In this document: positions 35,588 through 40,551 of the stretch, piece after piece
Layout of the letters: every line of letters starts with the position of its first letter
How positions within the stretch are numbered: the first letter of the stretch is position 1
Assembly (NCBI GenBank): GCA_020852925.1
Contig: JADYZU010000020.1
Location: 124,001 to 188,000 of the forward strand
Direction of reading: 5' to 3'
Length of the DNA: 64,000 nucleotides
DNA from: Rubellimicrobium sp.
GTDB taxonomy: Bacteria > Pseudomonadota > Alphaproteobacteria > Rhodobacterales > Rhodobacteraceae
Translations under genes and position numbers: made by a program
Notes under the pieces: model-generated
Databases searched by the model: none
The model's input: the letters and a program-made list of their open reading frames with translations, nothing else
Told to the model about the DNA's origin: nothing

Positions 35588-35704
35588 CGGGGCTCTGCCC
35601 CGGACCCCGGGATATTTGGGGACAGATGAAAGGGCGGCGCATTCATCTGTCCCCAAATATCCTGGGGGTGAGCCGCGCAAGCGGCGAGGGGGCAAAGCCC
35701 CCTA
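35588..35704. repeat. Dispersed intergenic repeat, head-to-head pair (copies B1/B2)
   Basis: Perfect 21-bp inverted arms GGATATTTGGGGACAGATGAA (35610-35630) and reverse complement (35642-35662), 11-nt loop, each flanked outside by a GC hairpin. Confidence 0.9.
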
Positions 35705-36679
35705 ACCCGCTCCGATCAGCACGCCCGCGGCAAAGACCAGCGCGCCGCCGACCACCACCTGAAAGACCGCGCGCAGGAACGGGGTTTCCATGAACCGGTT
35801 CTGGATCCAGGCGATGGCCCAGAGTTCGAGGAACACCACGGCGACGGCGATGGTGGTCGCGGTGCGGAAATCGGGGATCAGGTAAGGCAGCGCGTGACCA
35901 AGGCCGCCGAGCGTGGTCATGACCCCGCTGGCGATCCCGCGCTTGATCGGGCTGCCGCGACCCGAGATGACGCCGTCGTCGTGCGTGGCCTCGGTGAAGC
36001 CCATGGAGATCCCGGCGCCGACCGAGGCGGCAAGTCCCACGAGCAGCGTCGTATGCGTGTCCTGCGTGGCGAAGGCAGTGGCGAAGATCGGGGCAAGCGT
36101 GCTGACCGATCCGTCCATCAGGCCAGCCAGGCCCGGCTGCACCCAGGTCAGGATGAACTGACGCCGCGCGCGGTGTTCTTCGCCCTGTCCCTCGTCCCCG
36201 GCGGTGACGGAATCGCGCAGGTCCCCGGCACGGCTTTCGTGGCCGGATTCGGCGCGGGCGAGATCGCCCAGAAGCTTGCGCGTGGCGGCGTCCGTGGTCC
36301 GGGCCGCGGCGCGGGAATAGAAGGCGCCTGCCTGCCGCTCCATCTCGCGTGCCTCGTCGCGGATGCGGGCGAGGCTCAGGTTGCCGGTCAGCCAGATCGG
36401 GCGGCGGGCATAGAAGCCGGCGACATGTTCGCGCCGGATCAGGGGGATCACCTCTCCGAAGCGGATGCGGTGGAGCGCGATCAGTGCCTGGCGGTGGCTG
36501 TCCTCTTCCTCGGCCATGCCGTCGAAGATCGCGGCCGAGGCGGGGTAGGCCGCGCGCAGCTTTTCGGCCAGCGTGCGGTAGATGCGCGCGTCGTCCTCTT
36601 CGGAAGAGATGGCGAGCGCAAGGATCTCCTGCTCCGAAAGGTCACGAAAGCGGCGGCGCGCGGTCAGGGCCGAGAACAT
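35702..36679 (-). CDS. mbfA: Membrane-bound ferritin-like protein MbfA (rubrerythrin-like domain fused to VIT1/CCC1 domain)
   Basis: N-terminal Glu-rich ferritin-like repeats (SSEEDDARIYRTLAEKLR, GMAEEEDSHRQALIALH) then VIT1-type TM domain. Confidence 0.88.
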   Translation of the reverse strand: MFSALTARRRFRDLSEQEILALAISSEEDDARIYRTLAEKLRAAYPASAAIFDGMAEEEDSHRQALIALHRIRFGEVIPLIRREHVAGFYARRPIWLTGNLSLARIRDEAREMERQAGAFYSRAAARTTDAATRKLLGDLARAESGHESRAGDLRDSVTAGDEGQGEEHRARRQFILTWVQPGLAGLMDGSVSTLAPIFATAFATQDTHTTLLVGLAASVGAGISMGFTEATHDDGVISGRGSPIKRGIASGVMTTLGGLGHALPYLIPDFRTATTIAVAVVFLELWAIAWIQNRFMETPFLRAVFQVVVGGALVFAAGVLIGAG

Positions 36680-36741: not shown

Positions 36742-37872
36742 CTAGAAGACCACGACCGACCGGATCGATTCCCCCGCATGCATCAGGTCGAATCCCCGGT
36801 TGATCTCGTCGAGCGCGAGCGTGTGGGTGATCATCGGGTCGATCTCGATCTTGCCGTCCATATACCAGTCCACGATCTTCGGCACATCGGTGCGCCCCCT
36901 GGCCCCGCCGAAAGCCGTTCCCTTCCACACCCGCCCGGTGACGAGCTGGAACGGCCGGGTGCTGATCTCGGCCCCGGCAGGCGCCACGCCGATCACCACC
37001 GATACGCCCCAGCCGCGATGCGCGCATTCGAGGGCGTCGCGCATCACCTTCACGTTGCCGGTGCAATCGAAGGTATAATCGGCGCCGCCGATCGTGTCGC
37101 CGCGCCGCTTTGTCATGTTGACGATATGGCTGATGACATCGCCGCCGATCTCAGTCGGGTTGACGAAATGCGTCATGCCGAAGCGTTCGCCCCATGCGCG
37201 TTTCGCGTTGTTCACATCGACGCCGATGATCATGTCGGCGCCGGCCAGGCGCAGGCCCTGGATGACGTTGAGGCCGATTCCCCCAAGGCCGAAGACCGCG
37301 GCGGTCGCGCCCACCTCGACCTTGGCGGTGTTGATCACCGCGCCGATCCCGGTGGTGACGCCGCAACCGATGTAGCAGACCTTGTCGAAGGGCGCGTCGG
37401 GGCGGATCTTCGCCAGCGCGATCTCGGGCAGGACAGTGTGGTTCGCGAAGGTCGAGCAGCCCATGTAGTGCAGGATCGGCGTGCCATCGAGCATCGAGAA
37501 CCGCGAGGTGCCGTCGGGCATGAGGCCCTTGCCCTGCGTGGCGCGGATCGAGGTGCACAGGTTGGTCTTGCCCGAGGTGCAGGACGGGCATTCGCGGCAT
37601 TCGGGCGTGTAGAGCGGGATGACATGATCGCCCGGCCTGAGCGAGGTCACCCCCGGCCCGACCTCGAGGACGACCCCCGCCCCCTCATGCCCGAGGATCG
37701 CGGGAAACAGCCCCTCGGGATCGGCGCCGGAAAGGGTGAATTCGTCGGTGTGGCAGATGCCGGTGGCCTTGATCTCGACCAGGACCTCGCCCGCCTTCGG
37801 GCCTTCGAGGTTCACCTCCATGATCTCGAGCGGCTTTCCCGCCTCGACGGCGACGGCGGCGCGGGTGCGCAT
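36742..37872 (-). CDS. frmA: S-(hydroxymethyl)glutathione dehydrogenase (class III alcohol dehydrogenase)
   Basis: [64 protein letters not shown]. Confidence 0.96.
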
Positions 37873-38041
37873 GGTGTCTCTCCCCTTCCGGAACTTCGGG
37901 CCAAGGCTGGCGGAAAGCGGGGCGGGTTTCAACCGCAAAGCCGGAGTGTCCGGGCGGGCGGACCGGCAATCTCCTGCCGGAGGACGGCGAGGGGCGCCGA
38001 TGGGCATTGCCCGAATCTGCCGGGCGGGGCAAAGAGCGGGT

Positions 38042-38344
38042 ATGAAACCGATCGTTCCCCTTCTTCTTGCCCTTTCGCTTTCCGCGCTGGCCGCCTGTTC
38101 CGCCGGTGGCCCGGGGGCGACGCCGCAGCAGCACAATGCCGACAACGACCTGTGCCTTGCCTCGACCTGGCGCGGGCGGTTCATCGGCACCACCCGCGAT
38201 CAGGCCCAGTTCGAGATCGGCCCCCTCATCCGCGAGGGCAAGGCCCGCATCATCGAATCGGGGCAGGGCCGGTCGGAGCGGCCGGACCGTCTGACCTTCG
38301 AGATGGGCCGCGACGGGCGCGTGGCGCGCATCTGGTGCGGCTGA
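38042..38344 (+). CDS. Small lipoprotein, divergent I78-inhibitor-like (array member 1)
   Basis: Lipobox LSALAAC; C-terminal [18 protein letters not shown] shared with neighbours. Confidence 0.65.
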
Positions 38345-38396
38345 TGCGGCGCATCTTCCCCTTGTCCGGGGGCGATGGGCGGCGCAGGATCTGCCC

Positions 38397-38690
38397 ATGA
38401 AACCGATCATCCCCGCGCTTGTCGCGGCCTTGGCCCTTTCGGCCTGCATGTTCATCCCGGTGCCGCTGCCCGGCCCCGCCCCATGGCAGGATCCGGCGGC
38501 GCCGCGCACCGGCATGTGCGGCGCGGCGAGTGTGCAGCAATTCGTCGGGCAACCCCTGGCCGTGCTGGCCTTTCCGGCCGGCACCCGGATCATCACCCCC
38601 GGCACCCCGGTGACCGAGGATTTTTCCGACGCCCGCCTCAATGTCGATGTCGATGCGACCGGCCTTGTCACCCGCATCTGGTGCGGCTGA
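38397..38690 (+). CDS. Small lipoprotein, I78 peptidase inhibitor-like (array member 2)
   Basis: CGAASVQQFVGQPLAVLAFPAGTRIITPGTPVTEDFSDARLNVDVDATGLVTRIWCG. Confidence 0.8.
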   Translation: MKPIIPALVAALALSACMFIPVPLPGPAPWQDPAAPRTGMCGAASVQQFVGQPLAVLAFPAGTRIITPGTPVTEDFSDARLNVDVDATGLVTRIWCG

Positions 38691-38718
38691 GTCCCTTGTC
38701 CCGTTCAGGAGTCATCTC

Positions 38719-39006
38719 ATGATCCGTCCCGCCCTTGCCCTTCTGGCCCCGCTTGCCCTGTCGGCCTGCATTGTCGTCGCCCCGGGCGCCGATGTGCCGG
38801 CGACCATGCCCGCCGCGGATGAATGCGGGGCTGCCGCGATCCTTCCGCTGGTCGGGCAGCCGGCATCCGTCCTCTCGGGCATGACCCTGCCCGCGGATAC
38901 CCGGGTCATCACGCCGGGCATGGCCGTGACCATGGATTTCCGCGCGAACCGGATGAACATCATGCTTGACGATGCCGGCATGATCGAGAGCGTCACTTGC
39001 GGTTGA
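38719..39006 (+). CDS. Small lipoprotein, I78 peptidase inhibitor-like (array member 3)
   Basis: CGAAAILPLVGQPASVLSGMTLPADTRVITPGMAVTMDFRANRMNIMLDDAGMIESVTCG. Confidence 0.82.
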   Translation: MIRPALALLAPLALSACIVVAPGADVPATMPAADECGAAAILPLVGQPASVLSGMTLPADTRVITPGMAVTMDFRANRMNIMLDDAGMIESVTCG

Positions 39007-39338
39007 GGACGGTCCTGCCGCTCTGCCTTGCCCTCGGGGCCTGTGGCGGGGCGGCGCCTGTGCCGCAGCAGTCGGCGGCGGTGCCCGCGCCTGCGCCTCT
39101 GCCCGTGGGCGCGGCGGATACCTGTGGCGCCGCGTCCCATGCCGGCCTGATCGGGCAAAGGGCGACCGCGCTTGAGCGGGTGCTGCTCATGCGGCCGGTG
39201 CGCCTAATCCGTGACGGGGCGGCGCCGGACGGTTTTCTGCCCGGGCGGATCGGCTTTCACATCGCCATCCCGCCCGGCACCCCGCCGGATCTGCCGGTCA
39301 CGCTAGCCGAACGGATCACCGCGATCTCCTGCGGCTGA
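39003..39338 (+). CDS. Small lipoprotein, I78 peptidase inhibitor-like (array member 4)
   Basis: Lipobox LCLALGAC; CGAASHAGLIGQRATALERVLLMRPVRLIRDG...ERITAISCG; TTG start overlaps the previous stop (an upstream TTG at 38997 is also possible). Confidence 0.7.
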   Translation: MRTVLPLCLALGACGGAAPVPQQSAAVPAPAPLPVGAADTCGAASHAGLIGQRATALERVLLMRPVRLIRDGAAPDGFLPGRIGFHIAIPPGTPPDLPVTLAERITAISCG

Positions 39339-39380: not shown

Positions 39381-39722
39381 ATGGCGCCCGTTCCCCCGAT
39401 CCCCTTCCCGCGCTCCTCGCCCGAGGTGACGGCCTTTCACCGCACGGAACTGGCGCCGATCCTGGGCATCTATGGCCGCATGGTTGCCGCAGGGGAATGG
39501 GGTGACTATGCGATCACGACCCTGCCCGGCCTGGCGGTCTTTGCGATCTTCCGGCGCAGCGCCGAAAGCCCGCTGTTCCGCGTCGAGAAACGCCCGGCCT
39601 TGCGGCTGCGGCAGGGGCAATATGCGGTGGTCGGCGCCGAGGGGCAGGTGCTGCGGCGGGGCAACGACCTGCCGCAGGTGCTGCGTGTGCTCGAAACCCG
39701 GCGATTGCGGGCGGTGGACTGA
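39381..39722 (+). CDS. Conserved DUF2794-like protein
   Basis: FHRTELAPILGIYGRMVAAGEWGDYAI...VFAIFRRSAESPLFRVEKRPALRLRQGQYAVVGAEGQVLRRG; resembles the alphaproteobacterial DUF2794 family from memory. Confidence 0.75.
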   Translation: MAPVPPIPFPRSSPEVTAFHRTELAPILGIYGRMVAAGEWGDYAITTLPGLAVFAIFRRSAESPLFRVEKRPALRLRQGQYAVVGAEGQVLRRGNDLPQVLRVLETRRLRAVD

Positions 39723-39729
39723 TCGCGGG

Positions 39730-40551
39730 CTACAGCCGCTTGCGCATCACCACCTCGCCGTCGCCCTGCGCGCGGATGCGCAGTTCGGCCGCCCCAAGCG
39801 GTTCATAGGCGACTGCCATGTGATGGGCATTGGCATGGATCAGCGTTTCCTCGTCCACGACCAGGGCGACATGGCCCTTCCAGAACCACAGGTCGCCGCG
39901 TTTCGGTGGCGCCCATGTCTCGTGCCCGAGTGCGGCGAGTTGCAGGTCGCTGTCGCCGGGGCAGGCGATGTCGCAGGCCAGATGCGCCGCCTGCACAAGG
40001 CCGGAACAGTCGATCCCGAGGATGGAATTGCCGCCCCACAGATAGGGCACCCCGAAAAAGAGCTGTGCCACCGTCACCGGATCGGCAAAGGGCCGGTCAA
40101 GCGGGCGCAGGTGCTTTTTCGGGATATAGCCATCGGCGGTTTCCCAGAAATGCCGGCATTCGGCGACGACGGCAATCCGTGCGCCAAAGGACAGATGCGC
40201 GCGATCGGGCGACTTGATGCTCTCGGCCTCGTAAAGATGCGTGGCCGGAACCGCGACCCGGTGGGTGGCGGGGCGCGGGGCGCCAAGGGCGGCGCTGCGC
40301 ATGTAGCCCACATAACCGTCCCGCACCGCGCGCACGAAAGCCCAGCCCTCCAGCCGCTCGTAGACCAGAACCTCTTCGCCCCACAAAAGCTGACGGTCGC
40401 GCATGGCGCCGGGGGCGGGGCGCAGATCCTCGAGCGGGGCGGTGACGCGGGCGGGGGCCCCCGCCACGAACCGCGCCGCCCTCACCTTGCCCTCAAGCGC
40501 CGGATCGGCGACGCGCCCGTTCGATGCGGTCAGGCGGCGGTCCATGGTCAT
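39730..40551 (-). CDS. NlpC/P60 (C40) family peptidase with SH3-like N-terminus
   Basis: VPYLWGGNSILGIDCSGLVQAAHLA; RGDLWFWKGHVALVVDEETLIHANAHHMAV. Confidence 0.92.
   Translation of the reverse strand: MTMDRRLTASNGRVADPALEGKVRAARFVAGAPARVTAPLEDLRPAPGAMRDRQLLWGEEVLVYERLEGWAFVRAVRDGYVGYMRSAALGAPRPATHRVAVPATHLYEAESIKSPDRAHLSFGARIAVVAECRHFWETADGYIPKKHLRPLDRPFADPVTVAQLFFGVPYLWGGNSILGIDCSGLVQAAHLACDIACPGDSDLQLAALGHETWAPPKRGDLWFWKGHVALVVDEETLIHANAHHMAVAYEPLGAAELRIRAQGDGEVVMRKRL

Follow-up and report, generated by a model that had tools for sequence, protein, structure and literature searches.

Four tandem lipoproteins of Rubellimicrobium related to I78 peptidase inhibitors, two with and two without a canonical reactive loop

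The window analysed here, a 64,000-nucleotide stretch of a Rubellimicrobium sp. contig, carries four small lipoprotein genes in tandem, which we refer to as M1 to M4. Their resemblance to I78 peptidase inhibitors raises the question of whether they encode protease inhibitors and, if so, against which enzymes.

Four tandem lipoprotein genes and their surroundings

On open reading frame analysis, M1 to M4 occupy positions 38042-39338 in tandem, all on the plus strand (Table 1), in agreement with the initial annotation, which had described four consecutive lipobox-bearing frames of roughly 100 aa. M1 and M2 are separated by 52 bases and M2 and M3 by 28 bases, and the stop of M3 overlaps the start of M4 by 4 bases (TTGA, 39003-39006), as also noted at that stage; because of these short gaps and the overlap, the arrangement is consistent with a single transcript. 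An alternative in-frame TTG start for M4 is possible at 38997. A scan for promoters and terminators yielded nothing useful.

The array is divergent from an adhC-like gene, which its sequence and neighbours suggest to be of the glutathione-dependent formaldehyde dehydrogenase type, and lies upstream of genes for a DUF2794 protein, an NlpC/P60 protein, and an M17 aminopeptidase. This conserved adhC neighbourhood also includes, at 35702-36679 of the window, a rubrerythrin domain (PF02915) fused to a VIT-family membrane domain (PF01988).

Table 1. Genes of the array and its immediate neighbours, with positions in the window.
Feature	Position	Strand	Remarks
Zinc alcohol dehydrogenase, adhC-like	36742-37872	-	Divergent neighbour conserved across the family, outside the array
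M1 lipoprotein gene	38042-38344	+	ATG start, 100 aa, from ORF translation
M2 lipoprotein gene	38397-38690	+	ATG start, 97 aa, from ORF translation
M3 lipoprotein gene	38719-39006	+	ATG start, 95 aa, from ORF translation
M4 lipoprotein gene	39003-39338	+	TTG start, 111 aa, from ORF translation
DUF2794 protein	39381-39722	+	PF10984; frequent downstream neighbour
SH3 + NlpC/P60 protein	39730-40551	-	Convergent neighbour

By inspection, the putative signal peptide of each of the four proteins ends in a lipobox cysteine (LAAC in M1, LSAC in M2 and M3, and LGAC in M4), and all share a layout in which a short hydrophobic stretch and the lipobox cysteine come first, then a linker, and then a domain of ~60-70 residues. 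In all four this domain is bounded by two cysteines, a predicted disulphide pair with one cysteine at each domain end, as is expected of I78 proteins. The motifs reported earlier were likewise found, namely CGA...GQ in M2, M3, and M4, R(V/I)ITPG..VT.DF...R(L/M)N in M2 and M3, and a terminal CG in all four proteins, which in M1 and M2 forms part of a common RIWCG ending. Across an alignment of 40 members, selected for the presence of a lipobox, the lipobox cysteine, the domain cysteine, a glycine, an arginine, and the last cysteine were invariant.

Family membership and predicted fold

The four proteins were searched against Pfam, in which the Inhibitor_I78 family (PF11720) has a curated cut-off of 23.6 bits. 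M2 (41.8 bits, E = 1e-10) and M3 (53.5 bits, E = 3e-14) each matched all 65 profile positions, while M4 scored 13.5 bits, under the cut-off, and M1 had no Pfam match. Judged by this profile, M2 and M3 are formal I78 members. An NCBIfam search of the array proteins returned no relevant match. M1 and M4, although not filed as formal members, are related to I78 by divergent homology because they were found by a clade-specific profile that did not contain them: built from eleven I78 domains of the window and relatives, with M2 and M3 included and M1 and M4 excluded, this profile recovered M4 at E = 8e-11 and M1 at E = 3.4e-5 among 12,616 frame segments. The I78 call of the initial annotation can be kept on this basis, formally for two members and as divergent homology for the other two, although in the HMM check it had proposed only the first pair scored above the cut-off.

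We also compared the array with inhibitors of known structure, above all the Aspergillus fumigatus elastase inhibitor AFUEI (PDB 3w0d), which is the type structure of MEROPS I78 and PF11720. A profile of M1 plus relatives (alignment A3) matched AFUEI at 5e-11, barley CI-2 and LUTI at ~2e-4 to 1e-3, and other potato inhibitor I proteins from ~2e-4, with the reactive loop of CI-2 aligned without gaps; M3 itself matched AFUEI at E = 0.0018 in a phmmer search. In AlphaFold (AF2) models of M1 and M4, which were built with an alignment containing I78 relatives and so depend in part on the sequence evidence, mean pLDDT was 81 for M1 (>90 over most of the domain) and 84 for M4, and the best Foldseek matches of M1 were CI-2, AFUEI, and eglin (E from 6.5e-4 upward), while for M4 AFUEI ranked first with a weak match (E = 0.26) and CI-2 was also among the first. 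Structural modelling, which had been suggested as a second check, favoured the expected fold for M1, and matched it weakly for M4.

Since M1 lacks a Pfam match, its first-pass match to the clade profile spans the C-terminal half only, and its branch in a tree of 49 domains is very long, one might argue that it is unrelated to I78 and resembles the family through a short C-terminal similarity. We regard this as very improbable given that M1 has the cysteine pair, lipobox, and RIWCG ending in common with M2, sits in this array in both species, and has a model that matches CI-2 and AFUEI, even if the alignment behind that model contained I78 relatives.

Counterparts in a congener and copy number among relatives

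In a congener (G001), the stretch between adhC and DUF2794 holds a counterpart of each of the four genes, arranged as in the window; those of M2, M3, and M4 scored 27.4, 53.7, and 15.6 bits against PF11720 and that of M1 had no match. Identity between the two genomes was 78% for M1, 59% for M2, 52% for M3 (a pair that is perhaps not strictly orthologous), and 61% for M4, with dN/dS ratios of 0.18, 0.48, 0.36, and 0.47, respectively, against 74-90% and 0.12-0.26 for neighbouring genes; the ratios were obtained by the Nei-Gojobori method with Jukes-Cantor correction from a single genome pair and, for the array, from short genes. With dN/dS below 0.5 in each pair, all four genes are under purifying selection on average. 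Because M2 and M3 match PF11720 with the E values given above, the congener has the same set in the same order, and dN/dS lies at 0.18-0.48, the four reading frames are more than chance.

In the 49-domain tree, the M1, M2, and M4 congener pairs were each joined with starred support; the M3 pair was not joined, and most of the tree lacked resolution. M4 fell near M4-type genes of relatives, with weak support beyond the congener pair. From this topology, M1, M2, and M4 are clearly orthologous to the congener genes at matching positions, and because they pair in this way the duplications that produced them are, on the tree's evidence, older than the split of the two genomes.

The initial annotation had proposed a recent duplication of M1 and M2 based on their identical start and similar upstream sequence. 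The start is indeed shared, with ATGAAACCGATC (12 bases) opening both genes and having only three copies in the genome of 2.99 Mb, but since the duplications predate the split it is no evidence of a recent copy. A recent duplication is not supported, as each gene pairs with the congener gene in the matching position; the mature parts of M1 and M2 are 34% identical to one another, compared with 81% and 62% to their respective congener counterparts, and the start is missing from the congener M2. The similarity upstream of the two genes is short and weak. The common start could be due to chance or to a locally exchanged leader.

Another 12-mer, CGGGGCAAAGAG, lies just before M1 in the window (38025-38036) and just before M3 in the congener (L032:8270-8281); it occurs once in the window, where the chance expectation with one mismatch is 0.45. 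The congener gaps before M1 (L032:7380-7480) and between M2 and M3 (L032:8100-8230) hold repeat-like sequence, e.g. GCGAGGCGAAGCCGAAGCAA, of a type not seen at the corresponding places in the window.

A family-wide search detected I78 matches in 159 of 298 genomes. The comparison of copy number called for by the initial annotation was made at loci picked from I78 or DUF2794 matches, with multi-copy genomes partly favoured, so that the proportions are not population estimates: 44 of 54 sampled loci with I78 genes in relatives were divergent from adhC, and these carried one (14 loci), two (23), three (5), or four (2) copies. Among named DUF2794-centred loci with I78, 21 of 25 were divergent from adhC. 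The four copies in the window are not unique because a locus outside the genus pair (L150, genome G249) also has four. Named relatives with the DUF2794 neighbourhood were mostly Rhodobacteraceae or Roseobacteraceae, and the family name used here rests on them. The DUF2794-NlpC-M17 arrangement was also seen in JAHVJD010000003.1, titled Nocardioides marinus strain DP1N28-1, with Rhodobacteraceae-like order and identity; this assembly is probably misnamed or contaminated.

Reactive loops, candidate targets, and proposed function

The Thr at P2, the P1 residue, the acid at P1', and the bracing Arg have established roles in potato inhibitor I proteins. We placed P1 by alignment to CI-2 and LUTI, using T58-M59-E60 of CI-2, in which P1 is Met59 and Arg65 lies six residues on (numbering taken from named CI-2 mutants). 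In this alignment M2 (PVTEDFSDAR, or PVTE-DF) and M3 (AVTMDFRANR, or AVTM-DF) have canonical loops with Thr(P2)-P1-Asp/Glu(P1') and the bracing Arg, and the predicted P1 is Glu in M2 and, as in CI-2, Met in M3. The loops of M1 and M4 (DGAAPD-GFLPGR in the latter) are shortened and lack the Thr-P1-acid motif in both genus genomes, with the Arg and the cysteine pair retained in both proteins here; M4 also has a proline-rich insertion ahead of its last strand. The congener M2 has APGG-DF, without the canonical motif, in place of PVTE-DF, while P1 of M3 is Met in both genomes (VTM-DF and MTM-DF).

We compared 139 non-identical domains, drawn from the window and from relatives: 138 have the Arg six residues past P1, and 114 combine it with [TS]-P1-[DE]. 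P1 was Met in 67 domains, Gln in 28, Glu in 12, and Ala in 7, with other residues in the remainder. When the domains of relatives were roughly sorted into two types according to the residue that follows RxN, P1 was Met in 46 of 76 domains of the first type and Gln in 22 and Met in 21 of 58 domains of the second, although the tree poorly resolves these groups.

Taken together, these observations favour, with a probability of roughly 0.7, a reading in which the M2 and M3 types are periplasmic or outer-membrane serine-protease inhibitors accompanied by diverged paralogues. All four proteins would be exported and lipid-anchored, with an I78/potato-inhibitor-I-like fold, and would reside in the periplasm, most likely at the outer membrane. 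Of these, M3 and, in this genome, M2 may act as standard-mechanism inhibitors: their exposed, Arg-braced Thr(P2)-P1-Asp(P1') loop would lodge in the active site of a target serine protease, from which it would not be readily released. A Met at P1 would fit chymotrypsin-, elastase-, or subtilisin-like enzymes, and a Glu would imply another specificity. The earlier suggestion of several inhibitors for several proteases is compatible with the differing P1 residues of M2 and M3, but it does not extend to M1 and M4, which lack a canonical loop. Having kept the scaffold and cysteine pair, these two may inhibit in another mode or have another binding partner. That M1 is the most conserved member despite loop loss suggests a changed function, and its present role probably matters because it is so strongly conserved. 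We tentatively propose, at less than even odds, that M1, and perhaps also M4, descends from a protease inhibitor whose scaffold persisted after loss of the reactive loop and now serves a different, strongly constrained envelope function in the genus.

The absence of the loop motif with its Arg from 25 of the 139 domains, the strong conservation of a loopless M1, the absence of a cognate protease gene from the locus, and the missing association with S8 proteases would also be expected if the I78 lipoproteins here had chiefly a structural or binding role in the envelope, with the fold kept, inhibition not their task, and the loop decaying in M1, M4, and some relatives. However, most domains retain the motif, and the conservation of Thr(P2), Asp/Glu(P1'), and Arg alongside a variable P1 is what inhibitors would be expected to exhibit, which makes this explanation unlikely.

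With regard to the targets of M2/M3-type inhibitors, no serine-protease gene adjoins the array. The genome has matches to trypsin-fold genes, whereas S8 subtilases had no match in it or in the congener. On these grounds the array could serve to shield the cell not from foreign enzymes but from periplasmic proteases of its own that have a trypsin fold (DegP/HtrA-type). We consider this rather improbable since no such gene is linked to the array and almost all genomes encode proteases of this kind (12 of 14 controls), unlike I78. Defence against proteases of competitors, predators, protists, or hosts, with P1 diversified between paralogues, is possible but doubtful: the P1 residues of M2 and M3 differ, relatives show further variation at this position, membrane anchoring would fit, and an S8 enzyme of the cell's own is absent, but dN/dS averages below 1, with no diversifying selection in that average, and ecological support is lacking. 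I78 and S8 were both present in 96 of the 298 genomes, I78 only in 63, S8 only in 74, and neither in 65, which represents no association (Fisher p = 0.24) in a test that is rough and weak, the genomes being related. The predatory proteases suggested as possible targets in the initial annotation found no particular support.

M2 and M3 resemble AFUEI in the match over the whole I78 profile, the common cysteine pair, and an RLNI-like strand, and M3 shares its Met at the aligned P1 position; the window proteins differ in their predicted lipid anchor and tandem arrangement, and M1 and M4 in their short loops and scores below the cut-off. With potato inhibitor I (I13: barley CI-2, eglin c, LUTI) they have in common the fold predicted by the M1 model and a loop that aligns at Thr-P1-Asp/Glu and at the Arg six positions further on, but a terminal cysteine pair is characteristic of I78 and the matches of M2 and M3 to PF00280 are under its cut-off.

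AFUEI is a 68-residue elastase inhibitor (PMC8954713). A Bordetella pertussis protein, WP_003812179.1, likened here by label only, carries the I78 label, is predicted to be extracytoplasmic, and has been termed uncharacterised (PMC12106433); it was the one bacterial I78 protein that a published screen was meant to test, but expression failed (PMC12620975). In a limited search of open-access papers, the literature bearing on bacterial I78 function consisted of in silico papers, fungal papers, and this one failed expression, and no bacterial I78 member with measured inhibition was found.

What is new here, and its novelty is modest, is a conserved I78 locus of variable copy number that includes members without a reactive loop. 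In annotations, bacterial I78 proteins are called peptidase inhibitors, and a conserved locus with one to four paralogues, varied P1 residues, and loopless members offers a natural series for testing that annotation.
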